Positions 31,235-45,539 of a stretch of DNA of 64,000 nt are shown piece by piece. The stretch comes from Sphaerotilus natans (GTDB lineage: Bacteria > Pseudomonadota > Gammaproteobacteria > Burkholderiales > Burkholderiaceae_C). A model generated the notes under the pieces. The model ran no database searches. It saw only the letters and a program-made list of their open reading frames with translations, and had not been told where the DNA came from. Each line of letters starts with the position of its first letter. The stretch's first letter is position 1. Where the stretch lies: positions 1 to 64,000 of the forward strand of contig NZ_FTMZ01000024.1 in assembly GCF_900156335.1 (NCBI RefSeq), in the 5' to 3' direction. Made by a program: the position numbers and the translations under genes.

Positions 31235-32245
<1,011 letters not shown>

Positions 32246-32249
32246 TCAT

Positions 32250-32265
32250 CGCAACCGCCATGCCA
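32250..32265 (-). promoter_or_regulatory. Sigma-54 promoter of nifHDK
   Basis: On the minus strand TGGCATGGCGGTTGCG has GG-N10-GC spacing and an excellent TTGC -12 box. The NifA site centred 99 bases upstream and the IHF-like site between complete a classical nif promoter. Its 14-base core recurs exactly in the divergent promoter at 32401-32416. Confidence 0.88.
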
Positions 32266-32355: not shown

Positions 32356-32371
32356 TGTGCGGAATCCGACA
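32356..32371. promoter_or_regulatory. NifA upstream activator sequence for nifH
   Basis: TGTGCGGAATCCGACA is an exact TGT-N10-ACA. It is centred 99 bases from the nifH -24 box and only about 38 bases from the divergent promoter at 32401-32416. Confidence 0.85.
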
Positions 32372-33572: not shown

Positions 33573-35489
33573 ATGTCAGCCACTCCCCGCGGAGGCTCGG
33601 CAGTATCGGCCTCGTCCTTCCCGTCGTCCGGCTTCTTTGCCCACCACGGCCCCTGGGCACCCGGCGTGCGCCTGTTCCGCCGGCTGGGCTTTCGCAGCAA
33701 GGCGCTGATCGTCAGCACCTGCTTCGTGGTGCCGCTGGCCGTGGTCTCGGCCTCCTGGTTCAGCAACGAGATGGCCGACCTCGAGTTCACCCGGCGCGAG
33801 GCCGACGGCACCCGCTTCCTGAAGACGGCGCTCGCCGCGCAGGCCCAGGCGCTGGAGCTGCGGGCCCTGGCCGCCAGCGGCCAGCCGGGTGCGCTGCTGC
33901 TGGAACGCCTGGGGGCCTCGATCGAGACACTCCGGAGCGCACAGCCGGCTGACCATCCTTTTGTCGACACCCCCACGCTGGACGCGCTGCGCCAGCAGCT
34001 CGATGCGCTGCGCGGTCGCACCGACATGGCCGTGCACGATGCGCTGGTCGAGAAGATCGACACGATGATCGGCCATGTGCTCGACACCTCGAACCTGGCG
34101 CTGGACCCGCAGGCCGCGAGCTACTACCTGATGGACGCCACCCTGGTTCACTTGCCCGACCTGAGTGACCAGATCCAGCGGCTGGGCCTGCGTGCCCAGC
34201 ATGACGGCATCGCGGCGCTGGCCACCCGGGACGCGGCACTGCTGGCCAAGCACCATCTGGAAGACCTTCGCCTGACCCTCGAGAAGGTGATGCCGCTGAT
34301 GCCCCAGATCAAGGCCGACGCACGCATCGACGAGATGCTGGCCGCGCTGGAGCGCAGCCATGCCTCAGCCACCCAGCCGGGCCAGGAGGCGAATGCGCTG
34401 GCCGCCTCACGCGAGGCCATCACGCAAATGCAGAAATCTCAGGCGCTGATGCTGGCCGAGCTCGAGCGCATGCTCGACCAGCGTGCTGACAACAAGCTGC
34501 GCACGGAAGTCGCGGTCGGCCTGGCGATGCTGATCAGCCTGAGCGCCGCGCTCTACCTGTTCCACTGCTTCTTCCTGGTCATGAACGGCGGCCTGCGCGA
34601 GACGCGCCGGCACCTGAAGGCGATGACCGAAGGCGACTTGACCACCGCGCCCTCGCCCTGGGGCCGGGACGAGGCGGCCGCGCTGATGCTGGACCTGCGC
34701 GACATGCAGCATGCGCTGCGTCACATGGTCAGCAGCGTGCGTGCGGCCAGCCAGGACATCGTGCACTCCAGCGCCGAGATCGCCGATGGCATGCATGACC
34801 TGTCGAGCCGCAGCGAGCAGTCGGCCAACAGCCTGCAGCAGTCGGCTGCGGCGATGGAACAGATCTCGGTGACGGTGAAGAACACCTCGGCCCACACCGA
34901 GGAGGTGTCGAAGCTGGCCCGGGACAATGCGGCCGCGGCCAACGAGGGCGGCCGGGTGATGGGCACGGTGGTGGAGACGATGGAGGGCATTCGCAGCTCG
35001 TCGGCGCGCATCAGCGACATCATCGGCACCATCGACGGCATCGCCTTCCAGACCAACATCCTGGCGCTGAACGCGGCGGTGGAAGCGGCACGCGCCGGCG
35101 AGCAGGGCCGCGGCTTCGCGGTCGTCGCCGGCGAGGTGCGCACGCTGGCCCAGCGCAGCGCGCAGGCGGCGCAGGAGATCAAGCGCATCATCGGCACCAG
35201 CGTCTCTCAGGTCGAGACCGGCACCGCGGTCGTGCGCCAGGCCGGCGACTCGATCCGCCACATCGTCGACGCCTCGCGGCGGGTCAACGAGCTGCTGGAG
35301 GACATCGCCACCGGTGCACGCGAGCAGAGCCTGGGCATCGAGCAGATCGGCGAGTCGGTGCATGCGCTCGACAGCGCGACCCAGCAGAACTCGGCCCTGG
35401 TCGAACAGACCGCCGCCGCCTCGTCGGCGATGCGCTCGCAGGCCGACGCGCTGGCGCAGGAGGTCGAACGATTCAAGCTGCCGACCTGA
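33573..35489 (+). CDS. Methyl-accepting chemotaxis protein inside the nif island
   Basis: The 638-residue receptor has one membrane segment near residues 45-65, a helical periplasmic part of about 250 residues, a second segment near 315-335 (MLISLSAALYLFHCFFLVM), HAMP, and the signalling hairpin [20 protein letters not shown]. The ATG with AAGGAG nine bases upstream was preferred to the longer open start at 33468. It lies between the FmdB gene and nifB in the nif direction, possibly transcribed from the sigma-54 promoter at 32401. A sensor guiding cells to oxygen or redox conditions suitable for nitrogenase is an attractive but unproven idea. Confidence 0.9.
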   Translation: MSATPRGGSAVSASSFPSSGFFAHHGPWAPGVRLFRRLGFRSKALIVSTCFVVPLAVVSASWFSNEMADLEFTRREADGTRFLKTALAAQAQALELRALAASGQPGALLLERLGASIETLRSAQPADHPFVDTPTLDALRQQLDALRGRTDMAVHDALVEKIDTMIGHVLDTSNLALDPQAASYYLMDATLVHLPDLSDQIQRLGLRAQHDGIAALATRDAALLAKHHLEDLRLTLEKVMPLMPQIKADARIDEMLAALERSHASATQPGQEANALAASREAITQMQKSQALMLAELERMLDQRADNKLRTEVAVGLAMLISLSAALYLFHCFFLVMNGGLRETRRHLKAMTEGDLTTAPSPWGRDEAAALMLDLRDMQHALRHMVSSVRAASQDIVHSSAEIADGMHDLSSRSEQSANSLQQSAAAMEQISVTVKNTSAHTEEVSKLARDNAAAANEGGRVMGTVVETMEGIRSSSARISDIIGTIDGIAFQTNILALNAAVEAARAGEQGRGFAVVAGEVRTLAQRSAQAAQEIKRIIGTSVSQVETGTAVVRQAGDSIRHIVDASRRVNELLEDIATGAREQSLGIEQIGESVHALDSATQQNSALVEQTAAASSAMRSQADALAQEVERFKLPT

Positions 35490-35616
35490 TCCGGTCGCCC
35501 GCGCAGGCTCCATACTGGATCTCGAACGCGTCCGGCTCGCACTCCATCCTTCAGGCAGGACGAGAAGCGCAAGCAGCCCGCGTGCGCGCCACCCGGGGTG
35601 TCAGGGCTGTCGGGAA

Positions 35617-35632
35617 TGTCGCCATCCGCACA
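35617..35632. promoter_or_regulatory. NifA upstream activator sequence for nifB
   Basis: TGTCGCCATCCGCACA is an exact TGT-N10-ACA, centred 98 bases upstream of the nifB -24 box, almost the same distance as at nifH. Confidence 0.85.
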
Positions 35633-35668
35633 AGCGCCCCCGGCGCCGACAGACCGCGACATTTCTCG

Positions 35669-35681
35669 CAAGTCATTGATT
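35669..35681 (-). promoter_or_regulatory. IHF site in the nifB control region
   Basis: AATCAATGACTTG on the minus strand is a perfect match to WATCAANNNNTTR. It lies between the NifA site and the sigma-54 promoter. Confidence 0.75.
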
Positions 35682-35720
35682 CGTAAAAGGAAAAATCCGT
35701 AGGCAACGCGGCAGGCAGGC

Positions 35721-35736
35721 TGGCACGGCTCTCGCA
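35721..35736 (+). promoter_or_regulatory. Sigma-54 promoter of the nifB operon
   Basis: TGGCACGGCTCTCGCA carries a perfect TGGCACG -24 box and a GC at the right spacing. The predicted start is about 30 bases before the nifB ATG. The NifA and IHF sites upstream complete the arrangement. Confidence 0.88.
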
Positions 35737-35777
35737 CTGACGACGACAACATTCACCGTCGTCACGAGGCTCTCCCC

Positions 35778-37364
35778 ATGTCCAGCACCACGACGTTCGT
35801 TTCGATCGGCGACCTCCGCAAGGGCCGCCAGGCCATCAGCGAGCTCATCGAGACCGCCAGCGGCGGTTGCAGCACCACCGGCGGCGCCGGCAAGTCGAGC
35901 TGCGGCTCCTCCGCCGGCCCTGACGACATGCCCGCCGAGATCTGGGACAAGGTCAAGAACCACCCCTGCTACTCGGAGGAGGCCCACCATCACTTCGCCC
36001 GCATGCACGTGGCGGTGGCCCCGGCCTGCAACATCCAGTGCAACTACTGCAATCGCAAGTACGACTGCAGCAACGAGTCGCGCCCGGGCGTGGTCAGCCA
36101 GAAGCTCACGCCCGACCAGGCGGTGAAGAAGGTGCTGGCGGTGGCCAGCGAGATCCCGCAGATGACGGTGCTGGGCATCGCCGGCCCCGGCGACAGCCTG
36201 GCCAACCCGAAGAAGACCTTCGACACCATGCGCCAGCTCGCCGAGAAGGCGCCCGACATCAAGCTGTGCCTGTCGACCAATGGCCTGGCGCTGCCCGACC
36301 AGGTCGACGAGATCTGCAAGTACAACATCGACCACGTCACCATCACCATCAACATGGTGGACCCGGCGGTGGGCGAGAAGATCTATCCCTGGATCTTCTA
36401 CAACCACAAGCGCTACACCGGCTATGAAGCCGCCAGGATCCTGCACGAGCGCCAGATGCTGGGCCTGGAGATGCTGACCGCGCGCGGCGTGCTCACCAAG
36501 ATCAACTCGGTGCTGATCCCGGGCATCAACGACGAGCACCTGATCGAGGTGAACCGCGAGGTCAAGAAGCGCGGCGCCTTCCTGCACAACATCATGCCGC
36601 TGATCAGCGAGCCCGAGCACGGCACCGTGTTCGGCCTGACCGGCCAGCGCGGCCCCACCGCGCAGGAGCTCAAGGCGGTGCAGGACGCCTGCATGGGCGG
36701 CGCCAACCTGATGCGCCACTGCCGCCAGTGCCGCGCCGACGCGGTCGGCCTGCTCGGCGAGGACCGCTCCGAGGAGTTCACGCTCGACAAGATCGAGGCG
36801 ATGGAGATCATCTACGACCTCGACAAGCGCCGCGCCTACCAGGAGAAGGTGGAGGAGGAGCGCCAGGCCCAGCACCAGGCCAAGGTCAACGCCCTGTCCA
36901 ACGCCTTCGACGCCAGCCTGCTGGCCGGCACCGAGGAGCTGAAGGTGCTGGTCGCGGTGGCCACCGAGGGCCACGGCCGCGTCAACCAGCACTTCGGCCA
37001 CGCCACCGAGTTCCAGATCTTCGAGGTGGACCGCAGGCAGGCACTCTTCGTCGGCCACCGCCGCGTGGACCTGTACTGCCAGGGCGGCTATGGCGAGGAC
37101 GAGCAGCTGCCCTCGATCGTCAGCGCGATCAACGACTGCCACGCGGTGCTGGTGTCGAAGATCGGGGCCTGCCCGCGCGACGAGCTGAAGGCCGCCGGCA
37201 TCGAGCCGGTCGACCAGTACGCCCACGAGTTCATCGAGAAGGCCGCGCTGCAGTGGTTCGCCGACTACTGCGAGCGCGTGGCCAGCGGCGCCCTCCAGCA
37301 CCACGAGCGCGGCGACGCGCGCATCCGCCAGGGCGCCTTCACCGGCGGCCAGGCCGTCGCATGA
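35778..37364 (+). CDS. nifB: NifB, radical SAM FeMo-cofactor core synthase
   Basis: The 528-residue NifB joins a radical-SAM domain (residues about 70-330; cluster motif [17 protein letters not shown]) to a NifX-like C-terminal domain (about 395-500; [18 protein letters not shown]). Additional cysteines in [17 protein letters not shown] bind the auxiliary clusters. NifB fuses two 4Fe-4S clusters and inserts carbide to make NifB-co. It heads a long operon with fdxN. No Shine-Dalgarno of note; the ATG giving [11 protein letters not shown] is the first in frame after the promoter. Confidence 0.97.
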
Positions 37365-37424
37365 GCGACACCCTTGCCTCCCGCTTTCCCACCCTCCCCA
37401 GCCCATCCCGCCCAGGAGATCACC

Positions 37425-37619
37425 ATGGCCCTGAAGATCATTGCTTCCACCTGCACCGGCTGCTCCGCCTGCGAGGCCGAATGCCCGAACGTCGCCATCA
37501 GCGAGAAGGGCGGCACCTTCAAGATCGACCCGAAGAAGTGCACCGAGTGCGAAGGCCAGTTCGACTCGCCGCAGTGCGTCGCGGTCTGTCCGGTCGATGG
37601 CTGCATCGTGCAGGCCTGA
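37425..37619 (+). CDS. fdxN: 2[4Fe-4S] ferredoxin FdxN
   Basis: The 64-residue ferredoxin has [12 protein letters not shown] and [18 protein letters not shown], the second motif carrying the extra loop typical of nif-linked FdxN. It most likely supplies electrons to NifB or nitrogenase reductase. The ATG after CAGGAG, 60 bases beyond nifB, was preferred to the longer frame that begins in the spacer. Confidence 0.93.
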
Positions 37620-37635
37620 GCCCCAGGAGCCCGAC

Positions 37636-38028
37636 ATGATCCTGCCCAACGTCACCGTGCTGCCGGCCGCGGAGAAGTTCATCCGCCGCATGGTGCGCTT
37701 CTCGGACCACCCGACCGGGGGCATGCGCCTGACGGTCACGCCGGGCGGCTGCTCAGGCTACAGCAGCGAGTTCACCATCGAGCCGGCCCCACGCGCCGGC
37801 GACGCGGAGCTCTCGCTCGCCGGCACGCGGGTCTTCCTGCCGGCCGAGAGCCGGCTGGTGCTCGACGGCATCGTCGTCGACTTCGTCGACTCGCCGACCA
37901 GGAGCGGCCTGACCTTCACCCACCCGGGCCAGGCGCCGTGCGCCTGCTCCAGCTCCGGTGACGCCAGCGCGATGCCCGCCGAGAGCGGCGTCACGCTGGA
38001 CTCGATCCGGCGCATCGTGCGCGGCTGA
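37636..38028 (+). CDS. Nif-linked A-type Fe-S carrier (HesB/IscA family)
   Basis: The 130-residue protein has the A-type Cys set GGCSGYSSEF and CACSSSG, with a longer tail (MPAESGVTLDSIRRIVRG) than IscA. It is the third A-type carrier in the window and sits between fdxN and an unknown gene. Family members in nifB operons (nifIscA type) can transfer 4Fe-4S clusters to NifU or NifH. CCAGGAG lies 8 bases before the ATG. Confidence 0.9.
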   Translation: MILPNVTVLPAAEKFIRRMVRFSDHPTGGMRLTVTPGGCSGYSSEFTIEPAPRAGDAELSLAGTRVFLPAESRLVLDGIVVDFVDSPTRSGLTFTHPGQAPCACSSSGDASAMPAESGVTLDSIRRIVRG

Positions 38029-38050
38029 CGGCCCGCCCCGGAACCCGGCC

Positions 38051-38566
38051 ATGGACCCGACCGGAATCGACTTCTACGACGCGGTGCTCGGCGCCGGCCT
38101 GCCGCCGGCAGCCGAGAAGGCCCTGGCCGAGGCCGGCACGCTGCGTGGCAGCGACGCGGTGCTGACGATGGCCCGCCTGATGACCGCCCAGGCGCTGGCG
38201 CCGGGCCATCCGGCGGTGCTGATCGCCTTCTACCGCCACCATTTCTACGGCCATCGGCTGGCCGCCGCGCGGGATGTCGCGCGCCGGGCGCTGGCGGTCG
38301 GGGCCGAGGCGCTGGGGCTGCCGACGGTGTGGCGCGAAGTGCGCCCCGCTCCGCTGCCCGACGCGATGACCAACGCGCGCACGCGCTTCTACCTCTTCGC
38401 GCTCAAGGGCTATGCATACCTGAGCCTGCGCCTGGACGATCCGGTCGAGGCGCGCGACGCGCTGGCACTGCTGCAGGCGCTCGACCCGGACGACCGCGTC
38501 GGTGGCCGGGTGCTCGAGACGGTGCGGGTGCGCGCGCTGGTCGGCGACCCGGAGGACGAGGCATGA
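38051..38566 (+). CDS. Nif-linked helical protein of unknown function
   Basis: The 171-residue protein is predicted to be all-helical, with Ala/Leu-rich repeats resembling tetratricopeptide or armadillo-type helices (YRHHFYGHRLAAARDVARRAL; LFALKGYAYLSLRLDDPVEA). I do not recognise a named family. Its stop overlaps the LRV start (ATGA), so the two are coupled, suggesting a partner role. Confidence 0.75.
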   Translation: MDPTGIDFYDAVLGAGLPPAAEKALAEAGTLRGSDAVLTMARLMTAQALAPGHPAVLIAFYRHHFYGHRLAAARDVARRALAVGAEALGLPTVWREVRPAPLPDAMTNARTRFYLFALKGYAYLSLRLDDPVEARDALALLQALDPDDRVGGRVLETVRVRALVGDPEDEA

Positions 38567-39405
38567 CCACGACCGCGCCCGGATGGCACGACATCCCGGT
38601 GCGCGACTGGGAGGGGCGGCCGCTCGACTGCGCCGCCTGCGCACATGCCGGGCTGCACGCGGCCGGCGGCTGCGAGCCGGGCCGCTCGTGCATGCAGGAC
38701 GCCTACGCGCGCCGCATCGACCGCTTCTTCCGCGAGCACCGCGAGCTCGCCGCGCAGCACCTGGACCATCCCTATTTCGAGGTGCGCGCGATCGCTGCGC
38801 GCCACACCGATGTCTTCCGGCTGCCGGCGCTGCTCGACGACCCGGACGAGACGGTGCGGCTGCAGGTGGCGCTGCGCGTGCCCCAGCGCCTGCTCGAGCG
38901 GCTGCGCGAGGACCCGCACCGCGAGGTGCGCATCCGCGTGGCGCAGCGCCTGGACGGGAGCCTGCTCGGCTCGATGCTGCGCGACCCGGACTACGAGGTG
39001 CGCCGGATCGTCGCACGCCGCCTGCCCGAGGCGCTGCTGCCGCTGCTGATCGACGACAGCGACCTGCAGGTGCGCCTGGAGGTGGCCTCGCGCGTGCCGA
39101 TGCCGGCGCTGTGGCGCATGGTCGAGGACGGTGCGCCCGAGGTGCGCCGCCGCGTCGCCGAGCGGCTGCCCGCCGCCCTGCTGACCGTGCCGGCCACCGA
39201 CGAGGACTGGCTGGTGCGCTGGAGCGCGGCCGCGCGCGCCGAGTCGCCCGCGCTGCTGGAGCGGCTCCAGGACGACGCCGAATCCGAGGTGCGCGAACGC
39301 GCGACCGAACGCCTGGCCGAACTGCGCGCCGCCCGCGCCCTGCCGCCGACGACCCTGACCCTGATCCCGATCGAAGGAGGCCGAGATGGTCGACATCGCC
39401 CGTGA
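38563..39405 (+). CDS. 4Fe-4S leucine-rich repeat variant (LRV) protein
   Basis: The 280-residue protein starts with a Cys-rich domain (LDCAACAHAG, GGCEPGRSCM: four Cys for a 4Fe-4S cluster) followed by about ten tandem helical repeats of about 24 residues with the pattern DPxxEVRxxVAxRL. This is the LRV protein first described from an Azotobacter nif region. Function is unknown; an interaction surface for nitrogenase or its maturation proteins is suspected. It is coupled to the preceding gene and overlaps nifZ by 20 bases. Confidence 0.9.
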   Translation: MTTTAPGWHDIPVRDWEGRPLDCAACAHAGLHAAGGCEPGRSCMQDAYARRIDRFFREHRELAAQHLDHPYFEVRAIAARHTDVFRLPALLDDPDETVRLQVALRVPQRLLERLREDPHREVRIRVAQRLDGSLLGSMLRDPDYEVRRIVARRLPEALLPLLIDDSDLQVRLEVASRVPMPALWRMVEDGAPEVRRRVAERLPAALLTVPATDEDWLVRWSAAARAESPALLERLQDDAESEVRERATERLAELRAARALPPTTLTLIPIEGGRDGRHRP

Positions 39406-39721
39406 CGACGACAACGTCGAGATCGCCCTGCCCCCGCGCTTCGCGATGGGCGAGCGCGTCCTCAGCCGCAGCGTGATCCGCAACGACGGCACCTACAACG
39501 GCCGCGACATCGGCGAAGTGCTGGTGCACAAGGGCGAGATCGGCTACGTGCGCTCGATCGGCACCTTCCTGCAGCAGTTCTACATCTACGCGGTCGAGTT
39601 CATCGACTCCGGTCACCGGGTCGGCATGCGCGCCAAGGAGCTGTGCACGCTCGACCACCTGCCGCCGGAGGTGCTCGAGCGGCTGGGCGAGCGCGCGCAG
39701 GCGCTCGACGACCTGCGCTGA
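39386..39721 (+). CDS. nifZ: NifZ, first copy
   Basis: The 111-residue NifZ has the family core RFAMGERVLSRSVIRNDGTY, then VLVHKGEIGYVRSIGTFLQQ and YIYAVEFIDSGHRVGMRAKELC. NifZ helps form the second P-cluster of NifDK. GGAGG sits six bases before the ATG, inside the end of the LRV gene, so the overlap is genuine. A diverged second NifZ gene follows. Confidence 0.92.
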   Translation: MVDIARDDDNVEIALPPRFAMGERVLSRSVIRNDGTYNGRDIGEVLVHKGEIGYVRSIGTFLQQFYIYAVEFIDSGHRVGMRAKELCTLDHLPPEVLERLGERAQALDDLR

Positions 39722-39766
39722 TCGCCCGCATCCATCCCCTCATCCCCGCCACGAGGACCCGACGCC

Positions 39767-40066
39767 ATGCTGATCGAACCCCGCCAGCCGAAGTACCCCT
39801 GGGGCCTGGAGGTGCGCGCCGCCATCGACCTGTACAACGACGGCAGCCTGCCCGACATCGACGAGGACCAGCTGCTGATCGCCGCCGGCGGCCCCGGCGA
39901 GATCGTCCAGATCGGCCACCACACCGAGGCCGACCTGCCGCTGTACATGGTCGACTTCGGCCTGTGCGTGCTGGGCTGCCTGGAGGAGGAGATCGTGCCG
40001 TCCGACCTGCCGCTGCCCGCGCCGGCCCCCGAGCCCGAGCCGGTCGGCGAGGACAGCGCACGATGA
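39767..40066 (+). CDS. NifZ-like protein, second copy
   Basis: The 99-residue protein repeats the NifZ layout: PKYPWGLEVRAAIDLYNDGS, then GGPGEIVQIGHHTEADLPLYMVDF and LGCLEEEI, with a Pro/Glu-rich tail. It is shorter and much diverged from the first copy. Tandem nifZ genes are known in several diazotrophs. Its stop overlaps the next ATG. Whether it has the same role is unclear. Confidence 0.8.
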   Translation: MLIEPRQPKYPWGLEVRAAIDLYNDGSLPDIDEDQLLIAAGGPGEIVQIGHHTEADLPLYMVDFGLCVLGCLEEEIVPSDLPLPAPAPEPEPVGEDSAR

Positions 40067-40455
40067 GCGCGCGGGCGGCTGCGGGACGCGGCGGCCGCTC
40101 CGGGCCGCCGGCCGGCCACGCCGGCTCCGGTGCGGTCGTCGACCTGGACCGGCAGCGCATCGAGCGCGCCCTGCCCCGGCGCAGCCGCTACCGCTACGTG
40201 CAGCCCCGCGTCGAGCCCGGGCCCGACGGCGCGGGCTGGCGCATCGTCAGCCCGAACTGCTCGCGCAACGTCGACCGCGATGGCGGCGAGATCGACATCG
40301 CCTGGCTGGAGCCCGAACCGGACGGTCGCGGGCGCTGGCGGCTGCACCGGCGCGACCACAGCTGCGCGCTGTGGACGCTGCACTCCGAGGGCCTGACGCT
40401 GCCCGAGGCCCTGACCCTGCTCTGCGAGGACAGCTCGCGGGAGTTCTGGACATGA
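40063..40455 (+). CDS. Nif-linked protein of unknown function
   Basis: The 130-residue protein has a Gly/Ala-rich start and a conserved second half: RRSRYRYVQPRVEP, GWRIVSPNCSRNVDRDGGEI and RRDHSCALWTLHSEGLTL. Two cysteines may be functional. No known domain was recognised. Start and stop overlap nifZ2 and nifS (ATGA at both ends), so it belongs to a tightly coupled run. Confidence 0.75.
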   Translation: MSARAAAGRGGRSGPPAGHAGSGAVVDLDRQRIERALPRRSRYRYVQPRVEPGPDGAGWRIVSPNCSRNVDRDGGEIDIAWLEPEPDGRGRWRLHRRDHSCALWTLHSEGLTLPEALTLLCEDSSREFWT

Positions 40456-41645
40456 ACGACATCGTCTACCTCGACCACAACGCCACGACCGCGCCGGCGC
40501 CCGAAGTCGTCGACGAGATGCTCGATGCGCTGCAGCGCGCCTGGGCCAACCCCTCGTCCACCCACGAGCCGGGCCAGATGGCGCGCCGGCTGCTGGCCGA
40601 CGCGCGCACCCGCATCGCCTCCTTTCTCGGCTGCCAGGGCGCCGAGCTGGTCTTCACCAGCGGCGCGACCGAGGCCAACCACCAGGCGATCCTCGGCGCG
40701 CTGGCGCTGGCCCGTGCGGAGAGCGCCGGCGCGCGCCGGCGGCTGCTGGTGTCGGCGGTCGAGCACCCGGGCCTGCTCGCGCTGGCCGAGCGGCTCGCCG
40801 GCGAGGGCGTGCCGGTCGAGCGCATCGCGGTCGACGCCCGCGGGCAGCTCGATCTGGCCGACCTCGATCGCCAGCTCGCGCAGGGCGATGTCGCGCTGGT
40901 CAGCGTGATGGGCGCCAACAACGAGACCGGCGTCGTCATGCCGGTCGAGGCGGTCGCCGCGCGGGTGCGTGCGGCGGGCGCGCGGCTGCATGTCGACGCG
41001 ACCCAGCTCGCCGGCAAGGCGCGGCTGCACTTCGGCCGCAGCGGCGCCGACCTGATGAGCGTGTCCGCCCACAAGCTGCACGGCCCGAAGGGCATCGGCG
41101 CGCTGCTGGTGCGCAAGGGTCTGGCGCTGCCGGCGCTGCTGGCGGGCCGCCAGGAGCGCCACCGCCGCGGCGGCACCGAGAACCTGCCAGGCATCGCCGG
41201 CTTCGCCGCCGCCTGCGACCGCGCCGCGCGCACGCTCGACGAGGACCTGGCACGCATGGCGCGCCTGCGCGAGGCGCTCGAGGACGGGCTGCGCGCGGTG
41301 CTGCCGCCCGGACTGGCGGTGCTGGGCGAAGGCGCGGAGCGCCTGCCCAACACGCTGTGCGTGCGCTTTCACGAGATCGACAGCGAACGGGTGCTGGGCC
41401 GGCTCGAGCGCGCCGGCATCGTCGCCGCGTCGGGCGCAGCCTGCACCGCCAGCGGCACCCAGCCCTCGCATGTGCTGCTGGCCATGGGCTGCAGCGCGGC
41501 GCAGGCGCGTGCCGGCGTGCGCTTCTCGCTCGGCCGCGACACCACGCCGGCGCAGATCCGCCGCACCGTCGAGGCCGCCGCGCGCGTCGTGCACCCGCTG
41601 ATGCAGGCCGAGCAGCCTGCGCCTGCGCTGGCGCAGGCCGCCTGA
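40452..41645 (+). CDS. nifS: Cysteine desulfurase NifS
   Basis: The 397-residue enzyme opens with MNDIVYLDHNATTAPAPEV, has the PLP lysine in SVSAHKLHGPKGIG and the active-site Cys in ASGAACTASGTQPSHVLLAM. The loop around this Cys is NifS-type and the C-terminus lacks the IscS tail seen in the 4922-6142 protein. It provides sulfur for nitrogenase Fe-S clusters, normally to NifU, which is absent here; IscU is the likely acceptor. It overlaps the preceding gene by four bases. Confidence 0.93.
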   Translation: MNDIVYLDHNATTAPAPEVVDEMLDALQRAWANPSSTHEPGQMARRLLADARTRIASFLGCQGAELVFTSGATEANHQAILGALALARAESAGARRRLLVSAVEHPGLLALAERLAGEGVPVERIAVDARGQLDLADLDRQLAQGDVALVSVMGANNETGVVMPVEAVAARVRAAGARLHVDATQLAGKARLHFGRSGADLMSVSAHKLHGPKGIGALLVRKGLALPALLAGRQERHRRGGTENLPGIAGFAAACDRAARTLDEDLARMARLREALEDGLRAVLPPGLAVLGEGAERLPNTLCVRFHEIDSERVLGRLERAGIVAASGAACTASGTQPSHVLLAMGCSAAQARAGVRFSLGRDTTPAQIRRTVEAAARVVHPLMQAEQPAPALAQAA

Positions 41646-41687
41646 ATTCCCCGCACACACCGCCCCCCAGCAGAAAGGCCACCTCCC

Positions 41688-41900
41688 ATGAAAGTCATGA
41701 TGCGTCGCAACGCCGCCGGCGTGCTCTCGGTCTACGTGCCCAAGAAGGACCTGGAGGAGCCGGTGGTGGCGCAGGAGAAGCCGGACCTGTGGGGCGGCAC
41801 CGTCACGCTGGCCAACGGCTGGCTGCTGTCGCTGCCCGAGATGGCCGTCGACACCCGGCTGCCGATCACCGTCGAGGCCCGCAAGGTCGGCAGCGACTGA
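41688..41900 (+). CDS. nifT: NifT/FixU
   Basis: The 70-residue NifT reads MKVMMRRNAAGVLSVYVPKK then DLEEPVV and LWGGTVTLANGW. This short protein of unclear function is usually found after nifK, but here it follows nifS in the nifB operon. It is not essential in tested organisms and may influence FeMo-cofactor insertion. Confidence 0.93.
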   Translation: MKVMMRRNAAGVLSVYVPKKDLEEPVVAQEKPDLWGGTVTLANGWLLSLPEMAVDTRLPITVEARKVGSD

Positions 41901-41930
41901 GACCGACTCCCCCCTCGCCCGGAGCACGCC

Positions 41931-42212
41931 ATGAGCCAGCCCCTGTCCCTGCCCCCCTTGAGCGAGATCGCCGCGCTGGCCGACACGGCCGGCACGGTGC
42001 GCGAGGCCGCCGCGCTGCTGCGCCAGCGTCTGGCGCCGCTGCGCGTGGTGGTCGTCGACGCCTTCGACATGCGCGCCGAGACGCCGGCCGCGCGCGGCAG
42101 CCGCCGGCTGCTGTGGTTCGGTGCCAGCGACGGCCACTGCTGGCAGGTCACGCAGGACATGGCGCAGGCCGCCGGCCTGTTCCTCGCCGACGCGCCCGGA
42201 GCGGCCGCATGA
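41931..42212 (+). CDS. Small nif-linked protein (DUF6129-like)
   Basis: The 93-residue protein has a helical start and a C-terminal segment DGHCWQVTQDMAQAAGLFLAD resembling DUF6129 proteins from nif regions. Function is unknown. Its stop overlaps the start of the DegT-like gene. The family assignment is tentative. Confidence 0.65.
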   Translation: MSQPLSLPPLSEIAALADTAGTVREAAALLRQRLAPLRVVVVDAFDMRAETPAARGSRRLLWFGASDGHCWQVTQDMAQAAGLFLADAPGAAA

Positions 42213-43402
42213 ACGCCCCCACCGAACTGTCCGGCACCGCCGAGGACTTCGAGCTGCCCGAGGACTGGCTGCAGCTCAGCGACCCCGACGTCACCGAGGT
42301 CGAGGTCGAGCTCGTCACCCGCGCGCTGCACGGCGCACGGCTGTCGGGCGGCCCGCTGGTCGAGGCCTTCGAGCAGCGCTTCGCCGCACTGCTGGGACGC
42401 CGGCACGCGGTCGCGGTGGCCAGCGGCACGATCGGCACCTGGCTGGCGCTGCGCGCGCTGGGCATCGGCCCCGGCGACGAGGTCGTCGCCTCGCCCTACG
42501 GCTGGCACCAGGTGATGCATGCGGTCACGCTGGCCGGCGCACGGCTGGTCTTCGCCGACATCGACTACTGGACCGGCTGCCTGGACGCCACCCGCGCGGC
42601 CGCGCAGGTCACGCCGGCGACGAAGGCGATCCTGGCGGGCAACGTCAACGGCCACCCGGCCGCCTGGGAGGCTCTGCGCGCCGTGGCCGACGGCCACGGC
42701 CTGAAGCTGATCGAGGACTCGACCGAGGCGATCGGCTCGCGCTACCTCGGCCGCCCGGTCGGCAGCTTCGGCGACCTGTCGGTGTTCGACTTCTCGCAGC
42801 CCTCGGCGCTGTGCTGCGGCGAGGGCGGCATGGTCGTCACCGACGACGACGCGCTCGCCGCCGAGCTGCGCTACCTGCGATCGCGTGCGCTGGCCGACCG
42901 GCGCTCGGTGTCGGTGGGCTCGCGGGTGCCGCTGCAGTGCGGCGTCAGCGAGCTGACCGCCTCACTCGGACTGGCGCAGCTCGCGCGCCTGCCGCAGCTG
43001 CTGGACAAGCGCAAGGCGGTCGAGGCGCTGTACCTGGAGCAGGTGCAGACCTTCGAGGGCATCAAGCCGCCCTACATCCGTCCCGGCGTCGACGAGGTGC
43101 ACTGGATGCTCTACGTCGTGCACCTGGGCAAGCGCTTCACCGCCAGCGCCTGCGACCAGATCGTCGAGGACCTCGCCGAGGCAATGATCGAGTCGGCGCT
43201 GTACTGCCAGCCGCTGCACCAGCAGTTCCACTACCAGCGGCAGGGCTGGCGCCGCGGCCAGCTGCCGCTGGTCGAGCGCATCGCCGACCGCGCGATCGCC
43301 CTGCCCTTCCACGCGCACCTGACGTCCGACCACGTCCGCTTCATCGTCAAGACGATGAAGGACTCGACCGTCAACGTCGGCGCCGGCGCGGCCATCTACT
43401 GA
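42209..43402 (+). CDS. DegT/DnrJ/EryC1-like protein lacking the PLP lysine
   Basis: The 397-residue protein has the DegT sugar-aminotransferase fold signature: VASGTIGTWLALRALGIGPGD, LIEDSTEAIGS (Asp170 for PLP nitrogen), GSFGDLSVFDFSQPS and ALCCGEGGMVVTDDD. In active DegT aminotransferases a lysine occupies the position filled here by Ser199. No other lysine in that loop could substitute, so ordinary transamination is unlikely, although related dehydratases use His there. It is coupled to the preceding gene and followed by a SIR2-like gene. A regulatory or binding function within nitrogen fixation is possible. Confidence 0.85.
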   Translation: MNAPTELSGTAEDFELPEDWLQLSDPDVTEVEVELVTRALHGARLSGGPLVEAFEQRFAALLGRRHAVAVASGTIGTWLALRALGIGPGDEVVASPYGWHQVMHAVTLAGARLVFADIDYWTGCLDATRAAAQVTPATKAILAGNVNGHPAAWEALRAVADGHGLKLIEDSTEAIGSRYLGRPVGSFGDLSVFDFSQPSALCCGEGGMVVTDDDALAAELRYLRSRALADRRSVSVGSRVPLQCGVSELTASLGLAQLARLPQLLDKRKAVEALYLEQVQTFEGIKPPYIRPGVDEVHWMLYVVHLGKRFTASACDQIVEDLAEAMIESALYCQPLHQQFHYQRQGWRRGQLPLVERIADRAIALPFHAHLTSDHVRFIVKTMKDSTVNVGAGAAIY

Positions 43403-43435
43403 AGACCGAAGAGATCGAAGACCGAAGGACCGGAC

Positions 43436-44284
43436 ATGAGCCACTCCACCGTCACCGAACTGCCCGACGCCGTCGTCGCGGGCCTGACCGCCGGCACGCT
43501 GGCGCCCTACCTCGGCCCGGGCCTGCTCTCGCTGTGCGAGGGCGTCGTGCCGCCGGCCGACGCGCTGGCGCTGGCCGGCGTGCTGACCACCAAGGTCTCG
43601 GTGCCGGGCAAGATCCGCAACCGCCTGACCGCGGCGGCGCAGTTCATCGAGAACTTCAAGCACCGCAAGAGCCTGGTCAAGGCGATGGACGAGGCCTTCG
43701 CGCTGTCGGCCGAGCCCTCGCCGCTGCACCGCTGGCTGGCGACGCTGCCCAGCCCGCTGGTGGTCGACTGCTGGTACGACGACACGCTGCGCCTGGCGCT
43801 GGCGCAGGTCGGCCGCACCGGCTGGACCGAGGTGCAGGGCCTGAGCCAGAGCGAGCACTTCGGCACCTGGACCGGCGGCTACGACGCCAGCGGCACGCCC
43901 AGCCCCGACCCGGTCGAGGCGCCGCTGCTGTACTACAAGCCCTGGGGCGGCCGCGCGCCGGCGAGCAACTACCTGGTCTCGGACTCCGACTTCGTCGAGG
44001 TGCTGACCGAGATCGACATCCAGACGCCGATCCCGGCGCAGGTGCAGCAGCGCCGCGCCACGCTGGGCTTCGTCTTCCTGGGCTGCCGCTTCAACGACCA
44101 GCTGCCGCGTGCCTTCGCGCGCCAGATCCTCAAGCGCAGCGGCGGCCCGCACTACGCGGTGATGGCTGACGAGCCCACGCGCATGGAGGCGCGCTTCCTC
44201 GACGAGCTGGGCATCACCCGCATCGCGCTGCCGCTGGCCGAGGTCGCCGCGAAGCTCGTCGCCGCGCAGCCGGTGGCCGCCTGA
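43436..44284 (+). CDS. SIR2-like protein of the nif cluster
   Basis: The 282-residue protein begins with a Rossmann-type GTLAPYLGPGLLSL and has FIENFKHRKSLVKAMDEAF, VDCWYDDTLRL and YLVSDSDFVEVLTEIDIQTP, as seen in SIR2-family proteins of nif regions. In classical SIR2 enzymes a NYD-like motif and a K-x-HG motif are present; here they read WYDD and KPWG, so the catalytic His is not evident. It may bind NAD or ADP-ribose. Given that nitrogenase reductase is controlled by ADP-ribosylation in some bacteria, a link is tempting but unproven. Confidence 0.75.
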   Translation: MSHSTVTELPDAVVAGLTAGTLAPYLGPGLLSLCEGVVPPADALALAGVLTTKVSVPGKIRNRLTAAAQFIENFKHRKSLVKAMDEAFALSAEPSPLHRWLATLPSPLVVDCWYDDTLRLALAQVGRTGWTEVQGLSQSEHFGTWTGGYDASGTPSPDPVEAPLLYYKPWGGRAPASNYLVSDSDFVEVLTEIDIQTPIPAQVQQRRATLGFVFLGCRFNDQLPRAFARQILKRSGGPHYAVMADEPTRMEARFLDELGITRIALPLAEVAAKLVAAQPVAA

Positions 44285-44323
44285 GCCCTTCCCCGCCCTC
44301 CACATCCTTCCAGGAGAACTCCG

Positions 44324-44629
44324 ATGACCACGCTCACCCTCCAGCCCTCCGGCCTGTCCGGCGAAGTCGCCGACGGCACCAACCTGCTGCAGGCCATTCT
44401 CGCGCTCGGCGGCCAGATCGCCAGCAAGTGCGGCGGCAAGGCCAGCTGCGGCGCCTGCCACGTCTTCGTCACCGGTGGCCGCAAGGGCGTCTCGAAGCTG
44501 ACCCCGGCCGAGAACGCCAAGCTCGACACGCTGGTGGGCATCGGCAGCAAGTCGCGCCTGGCCTGCCAGGCGACGATCCTCGGCACCGAGCCGGTGACCG
44601 TCGAGCTGCTGGGCGCGCTGTCGGGCTGA
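44324..44629 (+). CDS. 2Fe-2S ferredoxin at the end of the nifB operon
   Basis: The 101-residue plant/adrenodoxin-like ferredoxin has CGGKASCGACHV and the distal Cys in SRLACQATILG. Such ferredoxins in nif operons may transfer electrons or, like Shethna protein II, protect nitrogenase, but the sequence does not single out one. AGGAG lies before the ATG. It is the last gene of the nif-direction run; a convergent remnant follows after eight bases. Confidence 0.85.
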   Translation: MTTLTLQPSGLSGEVADGTNLLQAILALGGQIASKCGGKASCGACHVFVTGGRKGVSKLTPAENAKLDTLVGIGSKSRLACQATILGTEPVTVELLGALSG

Positions 44630-44637
44630 GCCCGGCT

Positions 44638-44865
44638 TCAGTCCTCGGCCAAGTAGCCGCGCTCGATGGCGCCGACCAGCCGGCCGGCGGCATCACGCAC
44701 CAGGCAGCAGTGCAGGCTGTTCGAGAACACCGTGCGCAGCGCCTGCGGCGGCTTGTCGCCCAGGGGCGCGGCACGATAGAGTGCCGAAAGCTCGTCCCAG
44801 TCGACCGCATCGATCGCGTCGGACCACTGCAGCGCGTCGAGACCGGTCCCGGCGCATGCGCTCAT
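44638..44865 (-). pseudogene. N-terminal remnant of a GNAT acetyltransferase
   Basis: The 75-residue reading frame resembles only the start of a GNAT acetyltransferase: VDWDELSALYRAAPLGDKPP and FSNSLHCCLVRDAAGRLVGA. It stops where the acetyl-CoA-binding region should begin (AIERGYLAED). No continuation was seen downstream; the 3' part appears replaced by the end of the nif operon. It ends eight bases from the 2Fe-2S ferredoxin stop. Likely a deletion remnant at the island boundary. Confidence 0.6.
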
Positions 44866-44867
44866 GC

Positions 44868-45539
44868 TCAGCGCAGCTCGGAGACGAACTGCTCGAGCGG
44901 GCGGCGCACCTTGGGCAGATTCACCAGCCAGTCGCCGTCGGTCTGGCGGTAGCCCAGCGGCACGATGACGGCGCTGCGCAGGCCGCGCGCGCGCAGGCCC
45001 AGGATCTCGTCGAGCTGGGCCGGGTCGAAGCCCTCCATCGGCGTGGCATCCACGCCCTCGAAGGCCGCGGCCAGCAGCGCGGCCGACATCGCGATGTAGG
45101 CCTGGCGCGCGGCGTGCTGGAAGTTGACCTCCGCATCGCGCTGTGGGTAGCTCGACAGCAGCATCTGGCGGTAGTTCTCCCAGCCTTCGTTGGTGAAGCC
45201 GCGCACCTGGTTGGTCAGATCGAACATCGTGTTGATGCGCTCGGCGGTGTAGGTGTCCCAGGCGGCGAAGACCAGCAGGTGCGAGCCGTCGGTGATCTGC
45301 GCCTGGTTCCAGGCGATCTCGCGGATGCGCGCACGCACCTCGGGGTTCGTCACCACGATCAGCTCGAAGGGCTGCAGGCCGCTGGAGGTCGGCGCCAGGC
45401 GCGCGGCCTCGACGATGCGCGCCACCTTGTCCTCGGGCACCGGCTGCGCCGGGTCCATCTTCTTGGCGGCGTAGCGCCAGTTCATGCGCTCGATCAGGGC
45501 GTCGGAGGACGGGGTCGGAGCGGTCACGGTCGTGCTCAT
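44868..45539 (-). CDS. NAD(P)H nitroreductase (NfsB-like)
   Basis: The 223-residue flavoprotein has the nitroreductase-family start (RYAAKKMDPAQPVPEDK), FMN-binding SSGLQPFELIVV and GLRSAVIVPLGYRQTDGDW. It likely reduces nitroaromatics or quinones with NAD(P)H. A GNAT remnant lies two bases downstream. It is divergent in function from the nif genes and probably marks the start of non-nif sequence. Confidence 0.9.
   Translation of the reverse strand: MSTTVTAPTPSSDALIERMNWRYAAKKMDPAQPVPEDKVARIVEAARLAPTSSGLQPFELIVVTNPEVRARIREIAWNQAQITDGSHLLVFAAWDTYTAERINTMFDLTNQVRGFTNEGWENYRQMLLSSYPQRDAEVNFQHAARQAYIAMSAALLAAAFEGVDATPMEGFDPAQLDEILGLRARGLRSAVIVPLGYRQTDGDWLVNLPKVRRPLEQFVSELR

Follow-up and report, generated by a model that had tools for sequence, protein, structure and literature searches.

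The window, by which we mean the whole analysed stretch of 64,000 nucleotides, carries on its plus strand a run of genes that opens with nifB (35778-37364; TIGR01290, E 8.6e-207). It continues with a 4Fe-4S ferredoxin gene, fdxN (37425-37619), a HesB/IscA-like gene (37636-38028), a gene for a 171-aa protein (38051-38566), a gene for a 4Fe-4S leucine-rich-repeat-variant protein (38563-39405; PF05484, E 2.8e-22, and PF01816, E 2.4e-20), two nifZ-type genes (39386-39721 and 39767-40066), a DUF3024 gene (40063-40455; PF11225, E 1.3e-14), a nifS-type cysteine desulfurase gene (40452-41645), nifT/fixU (41688-41900; TIGR02934, E 7.9e-33), h93, encoding a 93-aa protein (41931-42212), a gene for a 397-aa protein of the DegT/DnrJ/EryC1/StrS fold (42209-43402; PF01041, E 3.1e-87), the SIR2-like gene studied here (43436-44284) and a 2Fe-2S ferredoxin gene (44324-44629; PF00111, E 3.6e-10). 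The second nifZ copy matched PF04319 (E 7.9e-21); the first, a gene call with no NCBIfam match, is termed nifZ-like after the "nitrogen fixation protein NifZ" of similar operons. The names of fdxN ("4Fe-4S binding protein"), of the HesB/IscA-like gene and of the nifS-type gene ("cysteine desulfurase family protein" at the same place) were likewise given to gene calls by similar operons. Neither the 171-aa protein, also a gene call, nor the h93 protein had a match in Pfam or NCBIfam; relatives of both were frequent among the named loci (the best 80 of 270 relatives), h93 being found in 65 of the 80. An earlier note had put the SIR2-like gene at the end of the nifB operon. Its SIR2 likeness and its place in the nifB run stood, but the gene is next to last, with the 2Fe-2S ferredoxin gene following on the same strand.

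A consensus scan of positions 35400 to 45000 revealed no promoter- or terminator-like site on the plus strand between nifT and the ferredoxin gene. Upstream of nifB lie a putative sigma54 -24/-12 site (35721-35735, plus strand, one mismatch to TGGCACG-N4-TTGC) and, by pattern scan, a putative NifA upstream activator site, TGT-N10-ACA (35617-35632, plus strand). Since both patterns occurred at chance frequency across the window (31 observed versus 34.7 expected for the sigma54-like pattern with one mismatch, and 5 versus 4.2 for TGT-N10-ACA), it is only the placement of the sites that argues for NifA-sigma54 control of the nifB run. A similar pair precedes nifH, with a sigma54-like site at 32251-32265 (minus strand, one mismatch) and TGT-N10-ACA at 32356-32371.

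The SIR2-like open reading frame, chosen by a gene call based on GC content by codon position, starts with ATG and encodes 282 aa. Its product matched PF13289 (SIR2_2) with E 5.6e-15 and 56.1 bits (curated cut-off, 24.5); no further SIR2_2 match of the genome reached E <= 0.001, and NCBIfam gave no match. Among the best 80 of 270 relatives, the closest named one was a 98% identical protein from Leptothrix sp. C29; comparison of the window gene with locus L010 gave dN 0.009 and dS 0.025, too few changes to lean on. An AlphaFold2 model, built from the window protein and 56 relatives, reached a mean pLDDT of 87.6 and a pTM of 0.89, with pLDDT below 50 at residues 139-143 and 187-194. The best Foldseek match of this model was ThsA (E 6.1e-11), and VIA-align likewise ranked SeThsA (7uxt) highest with Z 19.3 (255 residues aligned at 3.6 A), followed by DSR2 and SPARSA (both 18.9), KomC (18.3) and the classical Sir2 1ici (14.1). 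On the basis of this Z ranking, the modelled product resembles SIR2_2-type NADases more than it does classical sirtuins. The predicted SIR2 fold extends over its full length, residues 1-282 aligning with residues 3-283 of the ThsA SIR2 domain, which leaves no room for a second domain; the SLOG domain that lies C-terminal to the SIR2 domain in Thoeris ThsA is absent from this protein of 282 aa in all. The SIR2-like identity proposed in the earlier note is therefore borne out by the profile match and by the predicted structure, and a structure unrelated to SIR2 was not obtained.

The same note had read the motifs as WYDD and KPWG, and these were indeed found at residues 113-116 and 168-171, both differing from the Asn and His motifs of sirtuins. 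In the family profile, TTNYD of ThsA pairs with the DCWYD/CWYDD region of the window protein, and KMHG of ThsA with KPWG. In the window protein, the loop PYLGPGLL (residues 24-31; 43505-43528, plus strand) stands where the non-nif relative L187 reads FLGAGAS, DCWYD (residues 111-115; 43766-43780, plus strand) places Trp113 at the position of the catalytic Asn, and KPWG (residues 168-171; 43937-43948, plus strand) places Trp170 at that of the catalytic His. As an internal control, L187 in a similar alignment showed GAGAS, TTNYD and KMHG at these places. We aligned 93 homologs, minus two with internal stops (L058 and L068) and three duplicates, together with the window protein, giving 89 rows, of which one, a fragment, was gapped at the catalytic positions. 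In the remaining 88 rows, the Asn position was occupied by Trp in 87 and by Asn in one (L009), and the His position by Trp in 47, Ile in 28, Leu in 7, Met in 3, His in 2 and Tyr in 1. Both residues were gone in 85 of 88 rows, the exceptions being L009, which keeps Asn, and the rhizobial L092 and L094, which keep His. Gly27 was present in 89/89 rows and Pro28 in 83/89, and Gly27, Asp115, Pro169 and Gly171 were conserved across both subfamilies described below. The N112A and H152A mutants of ThsA were reported neither to cleave nor to bind NAD+, although according to the authors the effect of H152A may act through oligomerization (PMC7272460). Judged by this loss of residues, the window protein is probably without catalysis, although it may carry out another chemistry; since L092 and L094 keep the His and subfamily I keeps the Asn, the loss is partial in some members.

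The adjacent DegT protein gave a model with pLDDT 87.5 and pTM 0.87 that matched GDP-perosamine synthase 3dr4 with Z 49.7. Its PLP-lysine position is taken by Ser199 (codon 42803-42805, plus strand), as determined from an alignment of 82 homologs, minus three with internal stops (L050, L086 and L094) and three duplicates, plus the window protein, that is, 77 rows, one of them gapped. Among the 76 nif-type DegT rows with a residue at this position we counted 65 Ser, 3 Ala, 3 Gly, 3 Leu, 2 Cys and no Lys. When control DegT proteins, that is, other DegT proteins from the searched genomes, were aligned with the window neighbour, Lys was present in 5/5, while six nif-type DegT proteins and that of the window together gave two Ser, one Leu, three Gly and one Gln at this position. 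A nif-type DegT protein (473 to 744 bits, the next best match scoring 240) was found in 7 of 44 genomes with a NifB match above the cut-off, all 7 of which carry the SIR2 gene. In Rubrivivax, four of six loci (L013, L021, L029 and L038) keep SIR2 and nifT, with no nif-type DegT found in the stretch examined, and a partnership with DegT is therefore not obligatory. In the beta- and gammaproteobacterial clusters examined here the SIR2 gene usually adjoins this lysine-free DegT gene, whose product may be a partner in contact with the SIR2 protein. Among the papers listed by our literature searches, none describes a DegT gene in a nif cluster, the one that mentions DegT being a B. subtilis survey.

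The SIR2 gene belongs to a nif-specific family that occurs almost only in nitrogen-fixing bacteria. Among 397 genomes of Pseudomonadota, including the source genome, the family was found in 19, namely, in 19 of the 44 genomes above the NifB cut-off and in none of the other 353 (Fisher 1e-20, which, as these genomes are akin to one another, is not an independent-sample probability); these 353, which were counted as lacking NifB, include 61 with a NifB match below the cut-off. Conversely, 25 of the 44 NifB-positive genomes were without the SIR2 family. The genome profile search scored the best few candidates per genome, and its profile A3 included one member of subfamily I (L009), which helps to reach that clade. 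Of 60 relatives, 8 carried the SIR2 gene, and NifB was present in 8/8 (it was tested in part of the other 52). A class sample of 369 genomes gave 32 matches to the family, 30 of them strong (> 215 bits). Two of these 30, G172 and the source genome, were already known to be NifB positive, and 27 of the other 28 had NifB above the cut-off; G690, with a strong SIR2 match, had a NifX-type match only and no full NifB. The two weak matches (G593 and G602; 84 and 27 bits) had no NifB match. Of 72,556 plasmid records, 74 matched, spread over seven genera from Rhizobium (55) to Microvirga (1), and nif context was seen in 4/4 SIR2-matching plasmid records examined. These genera are known to hold diazotrophs.

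The earlier note had also raised the co-occurrence of the DegT-like and SIR2-like genes in other nif clusters, and this was confirmed at the named loci: among the best 80 of 270 relatives, 75 loci contained at least one other nif gene, 75 contained nifT and 73 contained DegT within the stretch examined. In the five loci without another nif gene (L010, L047, L070, L072 and L079), the match lay close to a contig end. In our reading, an internal stop in the SIR2 gene was present in 2 of the 80 loci, and the copy in genome G244 has an in-frame TGA. Besides a full-length copy, genomes G294 and G102 carry short SIR2 fragments (L115, L116, L118 and L119), three of the four with internal stops, which are decaying extra copies. 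On plasmid pl2WSM5005 of Paraburkholderia sprentiae (L095:9166-9495), a root-nodule isolate, we found only a 110-aa SIR2 piece behind DegT, which fits dispensability in nodules.

The family falls into two subfamilies, compared here with 20 and 21 chosen sequences plus L187 and L188; mean identity was 61% within subfamily I, 53% within subfamily II and 24% between them. In subfamily II, to which the window gene belongs, the SIR2 gene comes after nifT, and h93, DegT and ferredoxin genes may be present or absent. nifT lay upstream on the same strand in 11/11 stretches, and in the phylum sample nifT or DegT lay within about 1.5 kb in 14/14 members. Two rhizobial plasmids showed the order nifA-(nifB)-fdxN-nifZ-nifT-SIR2, nifB being missing from the table of the second record. 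Subfamily I, represented by 20 of 23 candidates (G127, G587 and G690 were left out), was 22 to 26.5% identical to the window protein and displayed the motifs NRD (20/20, Asn kept) and KP[M/L]G (20/20, His gone). Twelve of the 20 stretches showed it transcribed divergently from nifH; of the other eight, three had nifB, one had nifE/nifN/nifX and four had none of the searched nif genes within the piece. No genome of the 397-genome and class samples, where the best few candidates per genome were scored, held full-length members of both subfamilies.

Relatives of both types appear in print. The pnfA gene (PST1325) of P. stutzeri A1501 was described as NifA-sigma54 dependent, divergent from nifHDK and with homologs in diazotrophs only, and ten proteins at 20% identity were described as forming a second subfamily (PMC2820453). 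A non-polar pnfA mutant retained 23% of nitrogenase activity under microaerobic conditions (0.5% O2), with nifH transcription and mRNA unchanged and with activity restored by complementation (data not shown there). Anaerobically, it behaved like the wild type without nitrate and lost activity with nitrate (PMC2820453). Its authors pointed out a region about 31% identical to UspA or ETF-alpha-like proteins; the function that they suggested, in electron transfer or in protection from oxygen, makes no reference to SIR2 (PMC2820453). PST_1325 is labelled a SIR2 family protein elsewhere (PMC11332353), and statements on PST1325 expression (PMC6053447) and on the bounds of the A. vinelandii cluster (PMC10581106) assign no function; an Azoarcus BH72 paper (PMC3916325) does not mention pnfA, sir2, sirtuin or DegT. 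Because subfamily I is divergent from nifH in most stretches and its identity to the window protein is close to the 20% of the PnfA paper, and given its size and the SIR2 label, it looks like the PnfA subfamily. In M. loti R7A, the sirtuin-like msi351 is the last gene of the NifA-regulated operon nifB-fdxN-nifZ-fixU-msi351, and its inactivation left the symbiosis fully effective (PMC3538637); by this description, msi351 looks like a member of subfamily II. Rcc03262 of R. capsulatus, from the operon nifB1-rcc03265-nifZT-rcc03262, was detected in the wild type and not found without nifA (PMC6925177). Z. mobilis ZMO1821, between nifA and nifHDK, is upregulated under N2 fixation and was called a likely deacetylase by its authors (PMC8600466); it is also treated in PMC8594446, and Rhodovulum provides a further printed instance of the kind (PMC9412634). 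Since mutants have been published for pnfA, which appears to represent a sister subfamily, and for msi351, which appears to belong to the same one, the term "uncharacterised" used in the earlier note was too strong.

That note had further linked the gene to the switching off of NifH by ADP-ribosylation. NifH (31235-32116, minus strand) does have the target arginine, Arg101 in GRGV. In the source genome, a draft assembly of 57 contigs, we found no match to DRAT (draT), with the same search matching in 30/50 and 13/28 genomes, and none to ADP_ribosyl_GH (the DraG family), which matched in 5/14 control genomes. draT was present in 10/25 and 13/28, that is, 23/53, SIR2-bearing genomes and absent from 30/53. 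Among the 44 NifB-positive genomes, which are akin to one another, draT was rarer with SIR2 (6/19) than without it (20/25). The proposed link was not supported by these results, and a coupling to DraT/DraG as the general role of the family was rejected; an ADP-ribosylation link may exist in some genomes, but it cannot be the general role. Gene distances were taken from the 17 genomes in which a single contig carries draT as well as SIR2. Five subfamily I genomes (G756, G557, G521, G612 and G474) have draT immediately before SIR2 and in the same orientation, with gaps of 170 to 254 bp in four and 1127 bp in one, making a draT-pnfA operon possible there, and in G790 (subfamily II) draT is convergent with SIR2 at 199 bp. 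The near relative G001, with a 98% identical SIR2 protein, has draT while the source genome does not; the gene may therefore come and go within the genus, or an assembly gap may be possible.

Taken together, the loss of the catalytic residues and the occurrence almost only in nitrogen fixers indicate that the protein is probably a non-enzymatic helper of nitrogenase rather than an ADP-ribosylation switch. The explanation that we consider likely is that of a nif-specific accessory protein with a SIR2 fold devoid of the sirtuin/NADase catalytic residues, which supports nitrogenase after transcription under respiration. The protein would be made together with NifB, NifZ and NifT, would most likely be a non-enzymatic binding, scaffold or sensor protein and, acting after transcription, would keep nitrogenase, or the maturation of nitrogenase, fully active in the respiring cell. 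It would form one broad family with P. stutzeri PnfA, the window gene standing in the second subfamily (II), behind nifT; by analogy, the role of PnfA may carry over to this subfamily, and the window protein may have a ligand. Findings that count against this explanation include the fully effective msi351 mutant, which suggests that a PnfA-like role would be limited to conditions other than the nodule, the 25 of 44 NifB-positive genomes that do without SIR2, the merely partial loss of residues in some members, the Rubrivivax loci without a nif-type DegT and the account of PnfA by its own authors, who did not relate it to SIR2. A more specific and rather doubtful proposal is that the nifB operon acquired two pseudo-enzymes together, a sirtuin and a sugar-type aminotransferase that are both dead, and that their complex would sense a respiratory cue, nucleotide or redox in nature (NAD(H) or a related ligand), and tune nitrogenase or cofactor maturation independently of DraT/DraG.

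Four other readings were weighed against the nif-specific helper. It seems unlikely that the protein is an active enzyme whose catalytic site has been remodelled, such as an NAD-dependent deacylase with nitrogenase proteins as substrates, the role suggested for ZMO1821. The position and induction of ZMO1821 speak for it (PMC8600466), as do the Gly27, Asp115, Pro169 and Gly171 common to both subfamilies. Against it stand the joint loss of Asn and His in 85/88 rows and the loss of His in 20/20 subfamily I rows, the ThsA mutants at these positions that neither cleave nor bind NAD+, with the reservation that H152A also disturbs oligomerization (PMC7272460), and the rank of classical sirtuins below the SIR2_2-type NADases in VIA. 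That the gene might be a dispensable passenger, kept because it sits in a co-transferred operon, appears improbable: the conserved blocks across alpha-, beta- and gammaproteobacteria, the two positions in the nif cluster, the internal stop in just 2 of the 80 named loci (the best 80 of 270) and the phenotype of the pnfA mutant (PMC2820453) all speak against it, even though the msi351 mutant has no nodule phenotype (PMC3538637), only a 110-aa piece was detected in P. sprentiae and the G244 copy contains a TGA in frame. The remodelled enzyme and the passenger were both retained as rival readings.

The original proposal, in which the SIR2-like and DegT-like proteins make up a module that targets ADP-ribosylated NifH or ADP-ribose, could invoke Arg101 of NifH and the five subfamily I genomes with draT directly upstream of SIR2, but it is very unlikely in view of the missing draT and draG here, the 30/53 SIR2-bearing genomes without draT, the rarity of draT alongside SIR2 among NifB-positive genomes and the lost residues for NAD chemistry. 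A phage-defence SIR2 NADase riding by chance in the nif operon is hardly credible. The closest folds do come from ThsA, DSR2, SPARSA and KomC, and PADLOC gave a weak ThsA match (E 0.0016, 15.2 bits); the strict co-occurrence with nif, the NifA-dependent expression of a relative (PMC6925177), the loss of the catalytic residues and a model that corresponds as a whole to the ThsA SIR2 domain, with no second domain, speak against it. With so weak a PADLOC match and a nif-only context, this candidate was rejected.

Many nif clusters carry accessory genes of unknown function, and the SIR2 gene is a widespread one that is NifA dependent in at least one relative. One phenotype tied to respiration (pnfA) and one non-phenotype in nodules (msi351) are in print. 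The loss of the sirtuin residues turns attention from deacetylase or NADase activity to binding partners and ligands, with the lysine-free DegT protein as a concrete candidate partner, and efforts to transfer nitrogenase to new hosts would benefit from a factor that sustains its activity during microaerobic respiration.

Compared with known systems, the window protein resembles PnfA in size (282 aa versus 31.7 kDa for PnfA), in the SIR2 family label, in its restriction to diazotrophs and in its nif linkage. It differs in that pnfA is divergent from nifH while the window gene lies behind nifT-h93-DegT, more than 11 kb from nifH, and in its motifs, WYD and KPWG as against NRD and KP[M/L]G, a comparison made via subfamily I proxies and not with PST1325 itself. 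Like the window gene, msi351 and the gene for R. etli WP_008536543.1, a protein about 50% identical to the window protein, belong to nifB-fdxN-nifZ-nifT/fixU-SIR2 runs, in which they come last; R. etli has no DegT beside SIR2, and the M. loti mutant has no nodule phenotype. Rcc03262 and ZMO1821 are, by description only, similar SIR2 family genes in nif clusters, NifA dependent or raised under N2 fixation; the printed statements on them go no further than a label or a putative function as deacetylase. The SIR2 domains of ThsA and DSR2 share the fold over the full length of the window protein, but ThsA keeps Asn and His and carries a further domain, whereas the window protein has lost both residues. 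The DegT neighbour has the same fold as GDP-perosamine synthase and ArnB (Z 46.6 to 49.7) but lacks the PLP lysine and has another sequence in place of the element that precedes the next helix (FNYRM, FKYNL). The SIR2 gene is of a known kind; new here are the two subfamilies, the lost catalytic residues and the lysine-free DegT neighbour.
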